Of a stretch of 64,000 nt of DNA, positions 48,549-54,655 are shown one piece after another. The notes under the pieces were generated by a model that was not told the origin of the DNA, ran no database searches, and was given only the letters and a program-made list of their open reading frames with translations. Numbering within the stretch: the first letter of the stretch is position 1; each line of letters opens with the position of its first letter. The DNA comes from Sulfurospirillum sp. SCADC (GTDB taxonomy: Bacteria > Campylobacterota > Campylobacteria > Campylobacterales > Sulfurospirillaceae): the NCBI RefSeq assembly GCF_000743525.1, contig NZ_JQGK01000001.1:186001-250000 (forward strand). The letters are read 5' to 3'. The translations under genes and the position numbers were made by a program.

Positions 48549-48821
48549 ATGAGAAAAAAATTTAATGATATTAATATTTCGGCAGTAGAGTGTAGCGTTG
48601 AAGAGACGAAACTCTTCTATCAAAAGATTGGGCGCACGGTTCAACAAATACGAAAAAAAAGGGGACTAAGCCAACTTGAACTCTCCTATCTTATAGGCTT
48701 TAAATCGACATCGCTTGTAGCAGGTGCAGAAGCGGGGTACAGCAATATCCGTTTCTCGTTAGAACACCTCTATAAAATTGCCAAAGTTTTGCAAGTAGAT
48801 GTTAAAGAATTTTTCGAATAA
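48549..48821 (+). CDS. Small XRE-family regulator next to the HD-GYP gene
   Basis: A 90-residue protein that is little more than one helix-turn-helix domain: QIRKKRGLSQLELSYLIGFK (about residues 35-54) then EHLYKIAKVLQVDVKEFFE at the end. It is a clear paralogue of the 90-residue protein at 54383; both share the FYQKIG/FYRRIA lead-in and the HLYKIA-VL-VD-EFF end. Three similar sites surround its promoter. Divergent placement from the HD-GYP gene suggests it represses itself and that gene. No ribosome binding site is evident. Confidence 0.85.
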   Translation: MRKKFNDINISAVECSVEETKLFYQKIGRTVQQIRKKRGLSQLELSYLIGFKSTSLVAGAEAGYSNIRFSLEHLYKIAKVLQVDVKEFFE

Positions 48822-50374: not shown

Positions 50375-50401
50375 ATTAAATAATAATTTTTATTATTTAA
50401 T
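50375..50401. terminator. A/T-only hairpin between thiM and the ferritin-like gene
   Basis: ATTAAATAATAA and TTATTATTTAAT form a perfect 12-bp stem with a TTT loop across the thiM stop codon. It has no GC pairs, so its strength as a terminator is doubtful. Confidence 0.4.
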
Positions 50402-51196
50402 GAAGTCGATCTTGGCGCTACTCATGATACGTTTCGCATCCATTTGGCTTATCGCATCGATCAGTGACGTGCGAAAGGTTCCCATTCCTTGGCTTTTATC
50501 GGCTAGTTCACCTGCAATGGACATGGTTAAAATACCTGCAATCGCACTTGCAAGGGCATGGTTTGAAGCGCCTAAAAAACTGCCAATGAGTGAACTGCTC
50601 ATGCACCCTGTTCCTGTCAGTTTAGTCAGAGCCACATCTCCATTGTCAAGCGCATACGTGCTGTCACCATCCGAGACAATGTCTATTTTGCCCGTAATCG
50701 CAATCACACAACCCAATTTTTTAGCTAAATTCAAAGCGATTTTAGCGCCATCACTCTCCTCTTCCAACGAATCAACCCCTGCACTTTTGGCTTCAAGCCC
50801 TGCGATGGTTTTGATCTCCGCCATATTGCCCCTAATAACGCTAAAAGAGATCGCCTCCATGAGTTTTGCAACGCTTTGGCGACGAAATGGTGTTGCACCC
50901 ACACCAACAGGATCAAGTACTACGGGAATACCTTTGGCATTCGCTGCTTTTCCTGCTTTAAGCATCGAAACGATGGTGCGCTCATTCGCCGTTCCAATGT
51001 TTAAAACCAGCGCAGCGCAAATACCGACCATCTCTTCCACTTCGCTTTGTTCATCTGCCATAATCGGCGAAGCACCAATGGCTAAAACCACATTGGCGCA
51101 ATCATTGACTGTGACATAATTCGTGATATGATGGATTAAAGCGCATTTGTTGTGTAAGGCTTCAAAAACTTCATTTAATTGCGCTTGAATGTCCAT
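50393..51196 (-). CDS. thiM: Hydroxyethylthiazole kinase
   Basis: ThiM phosphorylates 4-methyl-5-(2-hydroxyethyl)thiazole for thiamine salvage. The 267-residue protein has HHITNYVTVNDCANVVLAIG near residues 21-40, DPVGVGATPFRR in the middle, and the catalytic GTGCMSSSLIG near 195-205. It overlaps the 3' end of cytX by 22 nt and is the last gene of thiD-cytX-thiM. Expression should respond to thiamine diphosphate through the riboswitch upstream of thiD. Confidence 0.95.
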   Translation of the reverse strand: MDIQAQLNEVFEALHNKCALIHHITNYVTVNDCANVVLAIGASPIMADEQSEVEEMVGICAALVLNIGTANERTIVSMLKAGKAANAKGIPVVLDPVGVGATPFRRQSVAKLMEAISFSVIRGNMAEIKTIAGLEAKSAGVDSLEEESDGAKIALNLAKKLGCVIAITGKIDIVSDGDSTYALDNGDVALTKLTGTGCMSSSLIGSFLGASNHALASAIAGILTMSIAGELADKSQGMGTFRTSLIDAISQMDAKRIMSSAKIDFIK

Positions 51197-52386
51197 GATG
51201 CAATTGCCTTTTTTGAAATGATAAAAAGAATGCTCGTTGCAAGCATCGTCGGAAGGGTTGAACCTAAAGGAAGATCAAGCGTAATGAACTGATAATAAAG
51301 CACTACACCTATAGCCCAAACAAGGAGTGATCCTACATGTAAAATTAATGTAGGTTCTATCTGCTCTTTTTTGAAGATAAAATAATCGCTCAGCACAATC
51401 GCAAACAGTGGTCCAAAGACCGAACCTATCGCATACAGAAAATTCTCATACTGTTCTATGGGTGTAAACAGCGCGACCAAAAGACCAACCACCGCCATCG
51501 CAAATGCGATCTTTCGCTCATTGATCTGTGGGAAAATATTGGTAAACGTCACGCCTGCAGAATACGCATCTAAAAACGTCGTCGTAATGGTGGAAAGCAA
51601 CACAATGCCAAGTGCTACAAAGCCCAAATGCAGTGCCATCATCATCGTTCCCAAACTCGCATCTTTGGCATAAAGCGCGATGGCAAGACCAATGGCATAC
51701 ATCAAAGAACTACCAACAAAATAACCCGTAAAACTGCCGATGAGTCCGCCTTTTTTACTCTTCGCAAAACGGGTATAATCCGAAATCAACGGCAACCACG
51801 AAAGTGGCATAATGATGCTAAGCTCTAACGCTGAGCCAAAACTCATCTCACCCGTAGGCTTTACATGTAAAATGCTTCCTTCTTGAAACACCACGCCACA
51901 CAACACCAACGTAAGCGCAAAAAGGAGGATGACGGCGATAAGATTGAGCTTTTGAAAGCCCACTTTTCCAAGCCAAATCCACAGCGCTATCAAGACACCA
52001 ATGGCTATCGCCCACGTGTTGATACTATCAAATTCAAAAAGATTGATGCCAAGCTCATTGGCGGCGCGCCCACCAGAGATGATCATCACCGCCGTCCAAC
52101 CGATGAGTTGGAGCACATTGAGAAGTGAAAAAAGATACGAGCCATAACGCCCAAAAGAGATGCGTGTGGACATGATGGCAGGAAGCTTGCTATGTGCGCC
52201 GATATAACCACCCAAAAGGAGAATAATGCCACCAATCAGATGCCCTAAAAGAATTGCTTTTAACCCTTCACTAAAGCCAAGGGGAGCTAAAAGCCCGCCT
52301 GTAAATATCTCTGCCATTGAGACTGCCGCACCAAACCAGAGTGCGAACAATCCAAAACTACTTAAACTCGTTTTTTCTTCCATCAT
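51175..52386 (-). CDS. cytX: Putative hydroxymethylpyrimidine transporter CytX
   Basis: A 403-residue NCS1-family carrier with about 12 membrane segments. The N-terminus contains WFGAAVSMAEIFTGGLLAP (about residues 17-35), followed by GHLIGGIILLLGGYIGA. CytX transporters are linked with TPP riboswitches and import the thiamine precursor HMP or related pyrimidines. The gene overlaps thiD by 4 nt and thiM by 22 nt. With ThiD and ThiM it completes a salvage set for both halves of thiamine. Confidence 0.93.
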   Translation of the reverse strand: MMEEKTSLSSFGLFALWFGAAVSMAEIFTGGLLAPLGFSEGLKAILLGHLIGGIILLLGGYIGAHSKLPAIMSTRISFGRYGSYLFSLLNVLQLIGWTAVMIISGGRAANELGINLFEFDSINTWAIAIGVLIALWIWLGKVGFQKLNLIAVILLFALTLVLCGVVFQEGSILHVKPTGEMSFGSALELSIIMPLSWLPLISDYTRFAKSKKGGLIGSFTGYFVGSSLMYAIGLAIALYAKDASLGTMMMALHLGFVALGIVLLSTITTTFLDAYSAGVTFTNIFPQINERKIAFAMAVVGLLVALFTPIEQYENFLYAIGSVFGPLFAIVLSDYFIFKKEQIEPTLILHVGSLLVWAIGVVLYYQFITLDLPLGSTLPTMLATSILFIISKKAIASWTFKRN

Positions 52387-53186
52387 GATTCCATTCCTGC
52401 TTTGGTGTAAAGTGCGTAAAAATGATGCACTGGACCCACGCCATGCCCCAGTTTAAATCCATGTGTAATCGCTTCGGTAATATACGCTTTGGCTTCCTCA
52501 ACTGCACGCTTTACATGTAAACCTTTTGCGAGGTTGGCAGCAATGGCAGAAGAGAGCGTACAGCCCGTTCCATGCGTGTTTATCGTTTCTAGTCGTTTGG
52601 AGTGTAAAAGATGAAACGCTTTGCCATCGTAAAGTACATCGGTGGCATCATTTTCCAGATGCCCACCTTTGAGCAACACATACTTACACCCCAGTTTATG
52701 CAGATTAAGCGCGGCTTTTTGCATCAATTCAATCGTGTCGATCTTATAGCCTACGATCACTTCGGCTTCCGGAAGATTGGGCGTGATGAGTGTTGCCATC
52801 GGTAAAAGGATTTCGATGAGTGCTTTTTTGGCTTCGGGTTGCAACAGGTCATACCCACTTTTAGAGATCATCACAGGGTCGATGACAAGCGGTGGTAAGG
52901 GGTATTTTTTAAGGGTTTGAGCGATGATCTCAATCGTTTGAGGTCGCGAAACCATACCAATTTTAATGGCATCCACACGAATGTCATCAAAAATCGCTTC
53001 GATTTGATGCTCAATGACGGAAGAGTTAATGTCTTGTACATCAAAAACACCCTGTGTATTTTGTGCCGTAATCGCGGTAATAACGCTCATGCCATAGGTA
53101 CCGTTCGCGCTAAACGCTTTAAGATCGGCTTGGATGCCAGCACCACCACAGCTGTCTGAGCCTGCTATGGTTAAACAATGTTTCAT
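52383..53186 (-). CDS. thiD: Hydroxymethylpyrimidine (phosphate) kinase
   Basis: ThiD phosphorylates HMP and HMP phosphate. The 267-residue protein starts CLTIAGSDSCGGAGIQADLK (family motif) and has IDPVMISKSGYDLL and the ATP/anion-hole GTGCTLSSAIAANLA near residues 212-226. ATG follows ACGAGGACAATAT. It heads the salvage operon and lies 88 nt downstream of the 3' half of the TPP riboswitch. A TTCCTC stretch in that leader could pair with the GAGGA of the ribosome binding site. Confidence 0.96.
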   Translation of the reverse strand: MKHCLTIAGSDSCGGAGIQADLKAFSANGTYGMSVITAITAQNTQGVFDVQDINSSVIEHQIEAIFDDIRVDAIKIGMVSRPQTIEIIAQTLKKYPLPPLVIDPVMISKSGYDLLQPEAKKALIEILLPMATLITPNLPEAEVIVGYKIDTIELMQKAALNLHKLGCKYVLLKGGHLENDATDVLYDGKAFHLLHSKRLETINTHGTGCTLSSAIAANLAKGLHVKRAVEEAKAYITEAITHGFKLGHGVGPVHHFYALYTKAGMES

Positions 53187-53273
53187 ATATTGTCCTCGTA
53201 AAATGTATTTACATGTAAAGATGATAAAGGTCGTGTAAGGGGATCAAAAAGAGGAAAATGTGTGGGTTTGATT

Positions 53274-53310
53274 GAGCTTTCCTACGCTGGCATTACCCAG
53301 ATCAGGTAGA
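53274..53310 (-). promoter_or_regulatory. TPP riboswitch, 3' half (P4/P5 arm and P1 strand)
   Basis: On the minus strand this reads ACCTGATCTGG, GTAATGCCAGCG and TAGGAA in order, the most conserved half of the thiamine diphosphate aptamer. It contains the pyrophosphate-binding arm. Its partner half lies 265 bp upstream in the transcript, beyond the inserted element. Confidence 0.9.
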
Positions 53311-53575
53311 TACCAAGCGCATCTATCTATCACGTCAATAGAACTTTTTAAAAATTGTGTTTGGTAGGCAAAGATGCGCAACCTTGCTAAGTGCAAGGCA
53401 AGTATCTTTAACGCCCCAAAGATGATTTTTAAAAAGTTCTCATAGGGCTTGTCAATCACACGGCGTCTCATTTCGTTGACACTTTTGAGTGTAGTTTGAC
53501 TACACTTTCAAAGTGTCGCCTCATGAGACTTGGTGCTTGACAAGCTATTGATGCGATAGATAGATGCGCTTGGTA
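53311..53575. mobile_element. 261-bp MITE-like element inserted in the TPP riboswitch
   Basis: The element (53313-53573) is flanked by TA on each side, the target duplication of IS630/Tc1-mariner-type transposition. The ends are inverted repeats: 19 perfect bp (starting CCAAGCGCATCTATC), a 3-base mismatch, then 7 more bp. Inside are two further foldback arms: AGAACTTTTTAAAAAT with its exact complement, and GCTTGTCAA/TTGACAAGC enclosing GTCTCAT/ATGAGAC, GACACTTT/AAAGTGTC and GTGTAGT/ACTACAC. It has no credible coding capacity. No second copy is seen in this window, so mobility is inferred from structure. Confidence 0.8.
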
Positions 53576-53636
53576 TAAGGATCAAAGAATCACCATTCTT
53601 TATCTCAGCTGGTTTACCAGCCCTCCTAGCACGAAC
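53576..53636 (-). promoter_or_regulatory. TPP riboswitch, 5' half (P1, P2, P3 arm)
   Basis: The minus strand begins GTTCGTGCTAGGAGG and contains the P3 hairpin GCTGG-TAAA-CCAGC followed directly by TGAGA, the pyrimidine-sensing sequence. An additional hairpin AAAGAAT/ATTCTTT follows, then GATCC, the P2 return strand. CTA at its 5' side can pair with TAG in the 3' half to form P1. Confidence 0.88.
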
Positions 53637-53672
53637 TATTAAGGACAATTGTACTCTGATTTATTGGTTTTT

Positions 53673-54278
53673 TCAAGATGAATGAAATTCAATGCGATTA
53701 CGCCCTTTACTCTTGGCTGCATAAAGAGCATTATCGGCATATTCAATGACATTTTGGAGTGTGAGTGAAGTGCTAAAAAGGCATATTCCTATGCTGAGTG
53801 TTACAGGTAAGGTATAGGTTGAATCTTCAAAAAGTTTTGATTGAATTCTTAACGCAATATTGTTAATATCTTTTTGTGAAATTGAGGGGAAAAATACGAT
53901 AAACTCGTCGCCACCATAACGTGCAAAAATATCGCTTTCACGTAAATGTTCGCTGATGAGCTTCACAACATACTGCAAAACATCGTCGCCCAAAATATGC
54001 CCATGGGTATCGTTAATCTGTTTAAAATGATCAATATCAATCATCATAATGGCAGAAGGTTTTTGATAATGCGGTTTTGTAAAATGATACTGCACAATTT
54101 CGAGGAAATAACGTCGATTAAAAATTTGGGTCAAATCATCGTACCGACTTAGCAACTCTAATTGACCATTATGTAACTTTAATTCACATAGGCGTTTTTG
54201 ATAGTAATAAAGCAATAGAAGTATGCCAACAATCAATATTACAATAACAAGCTTATAAAGTGTCTCTTGATCCATCAT
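53673..54278 (-). CDS. Membrane-anchored GGDEF diguanylate cyclase
   Basis: A 201-residue protein with one N-terminal membrane helix (about residues 9-27), a short linker and a complete GGDEF domain: LTQIFNRRYFLEI, DIDHFKQINDTHGHILGDDVL and RYGGDEFIVFF. The active-site motif is intact, so it should synthesise c-di-GMP. No clear inhibitory RxxD site is visible just before GGDEF. It is divergent from a small XRE gene, with an operator-like site 34 nt upstream. Confidence 0.92.
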   Translation of the reverse strand: MMDQETLYKLVIVILIVGILLLLYYYQKRLCELKLHNGQLELLSRYDDLTQIFNRRYFLEIVQYHFTKPHYQKPSAIMMIDIDHFKQINDTHGHILGDDVLQYVVKLISEHLRESDIFARYGGDEFIVFFPSISQKDINNIALRIQSKLFEDSTYTLPVTLSIGICLFSTSLTLQNVIEYADNALYAAKSKGRNRIEFHSS

Positions 54279-54382: not shown

Positions 54383-54655
54383 ATGTTGCTGTACAAAGAG
54401 TTTTCAAATGCAGAAATTAAAGATTTTTATCGACGAATTGCATACAATGTATACTGTATTCGAAAGCTAAAAAGGATTACACAGCTGGATTTAGCACTGA
54501 CCATTGGACACAAATCGGTCAGCACCATTGCAAAAATTGAAGCTGGATTGGAAAATAAGCATTATAACATCGAGCATCTTTATAAAATTGCGTCCGTTTT
54601 AGAAGTTGATATTTGTGAGTTTTTCAAGCCCAGTATTCTTCCAAATAGAGGTTAG
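54383..54655 (+). CDS. Small XRE-family regulator between two c-di-GMP genes
   Basis: A 90-residue helix-turn-helix protein: CIRKLKRITQLDLALTIGHK (about residues 28-47), SVSTIAKIEAG, and EHLYKIASVLEVDICEFFK near the end. It is paralogous to the protein at 48549 across nearly the whole length. Genes on both sides make or degrade c-di-GMP: a GGDEF protein (divergent) and a GGDEF-EAL protein (convergent, 2 nt away). It probably controls its own expression and that of the GGDEF gene through the two repeated sites. Confidence 0.85.
   Translation: MLLYKEFSNAEIKDFYRRIAYNVYCIRKLKRITQLDLALTIGHKSVSTIAKIEAGLENKHYNIEHLYKIASVLEVDICEFFKPSILPNRG

Follow-up and report, generated by a model that had tools for sequence, protein, structure and literature searches.

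Can a TPP riboswitch remain functional when a long foldback occupies its J2/4 strand? The question is raised by the leader of thiD-cytX-thiM in the window, i.e., the whole 64,000-nt stretch of Sulfurospirillum sp. SCADC DNA analysed here. A sequence-only reading had placed both halves of a TPP aptamer upstream of these genes, in the right order and on the right strand, with a 5′ half that should score as an aptamer part, and we find that two RF00059 matches and the gene assignments bear this out. The covariance model gives one partial match to the 5′ half (53554-53637, minus strand, 26.8 bits) and another to the 3′ half (53262-53325, minus strand, 34.5 bits), which lie on the same strand in the right order and jointly cover the model, confirming that a split aptamer is present. 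Both scores are under the RF00059 gathering score of 54.3 bits, and a scan of the window at that threshold misses the switch altogether. Uninterrupted orthologues return a single match at or above the gathering score and the filled leader does not; the proposed comparison with and without the insert thus exists in natural form, with 71-75 bits in the five congener leaders (G004, G005, G007, G008 and G009) that carry a short J2/4, TGTG. The low scores arise because the insert disturbs the model and not from absent core segments, since P2, P3, CUGAGA, P4 and P5 occur in order on one strand and are identical to the segments of intact congeners.

The architecture is otherwise that of RF00059, with P1, P2, P3, CUGAGA, P3a, P4 and P5 in order upstream of thi genes, but the usual few nucleotides of J2/4 are replaced by an extra branched helix, so that 270 nt separate the P2 3′ strand from P4 and the switch drops below the family threshold. 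The initial description, 261 bp with a TA on each side, was right that a foldback splits J2/4; its extent is refined here, the element itself measuring 267 nt (Table 1).

Table 1. Features of the thiD-cytX-thiM leader and genes; coordinates are positions in the window.
Feature	Position	Strand	Basis or remark
Foldback element (267 nt) occupying J2/4	53310..53576	-	same base in G006, G011, G017
Basal element helix, 5′ strand	53547..53576	-	fold; pairs with 53310-53339; outermost 12 pairs invariant in four species
Basal element helix, 3′ strand	53310..53339	-	fold; pairs with 53547-53576
Inner arm A of foldback, three stacked helices	53447..53545	-	fold; most variable sites here
Inner arm B of foldback	53340..53440	-	fold; few variable sites
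TPP aptamer, 5′ half: P1 5′ strand, P2 5′ strand, P3, CUGAGA core, P3a, P2 3′ strand	53577..53636	-	RF00059 partial match; 60/60 identical in four filled species
TPP aptamer, 3′ half: P4, P5, P1 3′ strand	53267..53307	-	RF00059 partial match; 41/41 identical in four species
Sigma-70-like promoter of thi leader (TTGAAA, 17-nt spacer, TACAAT)	53648..53676	-	consensus scan
Putative expression platform: UCCUC (53251-53255) able to sequester thiD Shine-Dalgarno GAGGA (53193-53197)	53193..53255	-	pairing in fold of most congeners; role inferred
thiD, hydroxymethylpyrimidine/phosphomethylpyrimidine kinase	52383..53186	-	TIGR00097, 355.5 bits
cytX, putative hydroxymethylpyrimidine transporter	51175..52386	-	TIGR02358, 400 bits
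thiM, hydroxyethylthiazole kinase	50393..51196	-	NF006830 and TIGR00694

We consider it likely that this is a TPP riboswitch that still functions, in which a foldback able to fold on its own has extended J2/4 to 270 nt. The spacer is predicted to adopt a Y-shaped fold of -120 kcal/mol (z = -13.3 relative to shuffles), closed by a terminal helix that runs from A53576-U53310 inwards for 24 uninterrupted pairs in this strain; the sequence-only reading had the termini closing such a helix, as in this predicted fold, but counted 22 bp including the TA. As the ends of the element are self-complementary, the aptamer halves are brought together, and when the whole leader is folded to minimum energy, the element helix forms alongside the aptamer arms in all four species that carry the element, consistent with the earlier expectations for a full-leader fold and for a linker compatible with the aptamer. 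The ViennaRNA probability of P2 is low in every allele and slightly lower in the filled ones, a measure that does not decide function. We propose that the element ends close a helix that would rejoin the P2 3′ strand and the P4 5′ strand, and that the three-way k-junction (P1/P2/P4) would become a four-way junction around the extra helix; TPP binding would then pack P2-P3 against P4-P5 as usual, and bound TPP would control thiD-cytX-thiM, probably at translation via a sequestered Shine-Dalgarno sequence.

What is known of the junction indicates how such a helix might be accommodated. In the TPP k-junction, J2/4 serves as the bulged strand (PMC4005666, PMC10573300). The E. coli k-junction has an A at 1b; between its 1b and 2b adenines lies a UC without intramolecular contacts, whose deletion lowers affinity by less than twofold (PMC4005666). 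The filled leader reads CUU-A-[UACCAAG...CUUGGUA]-UCU-A-CCUGAU, and by alignment it has the 2b and 1n adenines, with 1b, a G or A in k-junctions, ambiguous because of the helix. The G that immediately precedes P4 in short alleles is missing from it; 1b would then come from A53576 or there is none. A53576 could take the place of 1b, with the helix leaving from the tolerant bulge, or the helix could form a plain four-way junction. This is recognizably the junction of the E. coli and Arabidopsis switches, retaining the A2b and A1n adenines, but with a helix in the bulged J2/4 strand, four helices in all and a 1b that is not clearly present. Stem-loop variable insertions are common in riboswitches and include the optional P3a of TPP switches (Barrick and Breaker, PMC2258182); the element resembles these in being a peripheral helix beside an intact aptamer core, and differs from them in lying at J2/4 rather than P3a and in being far larger. 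An incomplete literature search returned no published J2/4 insertion in a TPP riboswitch.

A promoter-like TTGAAA-17-TACAAT motif lies just upstream of the aptamer, which should place the insert inside the transcribed leader. The consensus scan finds one such motif versus 1.4 expected in shuffles, and our sigma-70-like call is based on position and conservation and not on the scan score; the motif is kept in 9/10 congeners of the clade, with altered spacing in G011. In leader folds of most congeners, from which G008 was left out because its segment was too long, the Shine-Dalgarno sequence is paired with a probability of 0.96-1.0. A scan of the transcribed strand of the insert finds no terminator. 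The flanks of the region also encode two 90-residue proteins of similar layout (48549-48821 and 54383-54655, plus strand) that look like small helix-turn-helix regulators.

Comparison of the same leader in relatives, as proposed at the outset, reveals the element in the thiD leader of three more species, G006, G011 and G017, always inserted at the identical base and with 96, 97 and 95% identity, respectively. It is a single copy in each of these and in its own genome, and further copies are found neither in its own genome, the genus and the family, nor in 397 genomes of the class or in phage or plasmid records; a search of viral contigs with exact pieces of the element was likewise negative. 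Low-scoring stretches of 23-25 nt that matched in G022, G026, G029 and G041 were taken as chance. Six other close congeners have a 4-nt J2/4 (the five above) or, in G001, a 24-nt mini-hairpin, ATACCAAGC-GTATGT-GCTTGATAT, with the same ends as the element, a J2/4 of 27 nt and an RF00059 score of 46.3 bits. The matching thiD loci of the genus include those of S. cavolei (G010), with a J2/4 of 27 nt, and S. diekertiae, with one of 4 nt; the thiD switches of S. cavolei and G014 carry small J2/4 hairpins unrelated in sequence to the element (60.2 and 52.7 bits), and more distant congeners have a 2-nt J2/4, one of them a bare TA linker. The natural empty J2/4, TGTG or TG/TA, is thus shorter than the approximately 8 nt predicted by excising the element.

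These small hairpins are part of a wider pattern. The Sulfurospirillum genomes examined contain a second TPP switch upstream of a thiC-like gene starting MSKVLDNLEKIDAS, whose product we take to be ThiC. Its P2 3′ strand, ACCC, directly follows the CUGAGA segment, as in E. coli thiM, and its J2/4 holds an 8-pair hairpin with a UAAU cap that is present throughout these genomes. Two pairs of this hairpin have changed on both sides (G-C to A-U and A-U to G-C), giving 7 double-changed cells with 98.4% of cells paired; in 500 shuffles neither the share of paired cells, nor the number of double-changed ones, nor the covariation score is ever matched, and pairing falls to 28-56% in slid controls. In these switches (L209:241-357, i.e., G000:C7:1940-2056, and its Sulfurospirillum equivalents) the hairpin has an invariant UUAAUG apical segment. 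The RF00059 score of the thiC switch falls slightly short of the threshold, and the model assigns the J2/4 hairpin to P3a, as it also does that of S. cavolei.

Pattern searches find the thiC-type J2/4 hairpin throughout the genus and in G361, a genome from a different family, and a short J2/4 in G035 and G146, of the same phylum; among 299 Pseudomonadota genomes they return seven matching switches, all with the same short spacing of 5 nt, too few to gauge how rare a J2/4 helix is. The matched 48 nt of G361 (G361:C16:54135-54182) is identical, letter for letter, to a thiC-type hairpin of G021, a Sulfurospirillum species (G021:C7:221725-221772), a possible case of transfer. In another genus of the family, G033 has two TPP switches with apparent J2/4 hairpins (L220:238-364 and L221:225-341). 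With hairpins at this position in the thiC switch, S. cavolei, G014, G001 and apparently G033, J2/4 has repeatedly carried a helix in this lineage and is a natural expansion point. A large helix at the site thereby gains in plausibility; the large insert enlarges an existing theme.

We next consider whether the foldback is recent and has simply broken the aptamer, so that thiD-cytX-thiM expression no longer depends on TPP and regulation falls to the intact thiC switch. That the whole aptamer is no longer recognized by RF00059, that a second TPP switch exists elsewhere in the genome and that close relatives without the element are common would all fit, as would the low divergence of the element, which may be young. 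We nevertheless find inactivation improbable, as the aptamer halves are variable at 0/101 sites among the four filled species and the element at 21/267 (Fisher p = 0.0016). Halves free to change at the mean divergence of the element would be expected to show ≈8.7 changes, with a probability of about 2e-4 for none, and between filled species the adjacent thiD differs at 41-45% of its fourfold silent sites; this clock fails, and the rate argument weakens, if element copies diverged elsewhere before insertion. The promoter motif and the UCCUC/GAGGA platform are also kept in filled leaders, the self-complementary ends reunite the halves, and the same junction bears helices in other switches of the lineage. 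The invariant halves, with the promoter and platform, point to continuing selection on the aptamer after insertion. The sequence-only reading left open a broken switch or a tolerated, even adapted, insertion; conservation of the halves in four species favors tolerance, while adaptation of the insert finds no such backing, its fold evolving no better than chance with a conservative ancestor.

A second alternative, about as doubtful, is that the element is a miniature inverted-repeat transposable element (MITE), TA-duplicating and IS630-like, that hopped into J2/4, in line with the transposon origin first suggested for the helix. Long perfect terminal inverted repeats, a TA at both outer ends and patchy presence among close species are what a MITE would show, and like MITEs and other bacterial foldbacks the element is a palindromic non-coding foldback in a regulatory leader. 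Unlike them, it is a single copy at one locus in each of four genomes, with no detectable family among the 397 genomes of the class, phages, plasmids and viral contigs, and always inserted at the same base; the repeats are there, but neither multiple dispersed copies nor a target-site duplication verifiable against an empty site is found. The close natural empty allele, TGTG, has no TA, which at empty sites occurs only as the bare linker of one distant congener, and the TA-TA pairs, which the G001 mini-hairpin keeps, are explained equally well as the base of the RNA helix.

The history of the site suggests exchange between species. The four filled species are scattered on the rpoB and thiD-cytX trees, and the well-supported branches require a minimum of three to four changes: G006 pairs with the short-allele G007 on the trees, and G011 with the short-allele G005 on rpoB. 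Element copies differ by 3-5% whereas silent sites differ by >40%, an element divergence of about a tenth of that at silent sites; this low divergence, together with the patchy distribution on the trees, indicates that the element probably spread horizontally between species. The clade has five short alleles, every one of them TGTG, a uniformity not expected from independent imprecise deletions. G011 and G005 are nearly identical in rpoB (branches of ~0.004 each) yet differ by 13.5% in thiD, which makes interspecies recombination of the leader the simplest account; congeners probably exchanged the element, found at one site only, through recombination across the aptamer sequences that flank it, which are identical. 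The G001 mini-hairpin may be a deletion remnant, or the ancestor into whose loop the rest was inserted. A bolder proposal, for which we see only a slim chance, is a site-specific RNA-structured cassette confined to J2/4 of the Sulfurospirillum thiD TPP riboswitch, which would move by recombination in the invariant flanks and rebuild the aptamer as a four-way junction with an altered ligand response.

Least probable of all is that the element is selected at this site for a function of its own, as a regulatory RNA domain, small RNA or short protein: its 3′ part (53310-53423, minus strand) has 2 variable sites in 114 nt versus 19 in 153 in the preceding part (post hoc p = 0.001), all four filled species keep open an ORF of 74-90 codons, and two pairs in arm A are changed on both sides, but the ORF has no Pfam match and 4 non-synonymous to 3 synonymous substitutions, the element has no significant Rfam match, 53/500 shuffles reach the two double-sided changes of arm A and an energy test with a conservative ancestor detects no selection on the fold. 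Double-sided changes in a palindrome could also arise by template switching. Selection on the insert fold finds no support on this basis, as a signal that is strong with a majority-rule ancestor is gone with the most stable one (0.80 of simulations at least as stable), and a coding role was likewise set aside, the substitutions being not clearly synonymous and no Pfam family recognized. A 75-codon ORF (53244-53471, minus strand) starts inside the element and runs through the 3′ aptamer half.

A working TPP riboswitch with an enlarged J2/4 therefore remains the reading we favor. Riboswitch searches go blind to such aptamers, which the covariance model cuts into sub-threshold halves. Among close relatives, the J2/4 of a single riboswitch takes lengths of 2, 4, 24, 27 and 270 nt, a natural series in which the cost or benefit of a helix in the k-junction is directly measurable, and the split switch bears on how riboswitches gain peripheral domains.
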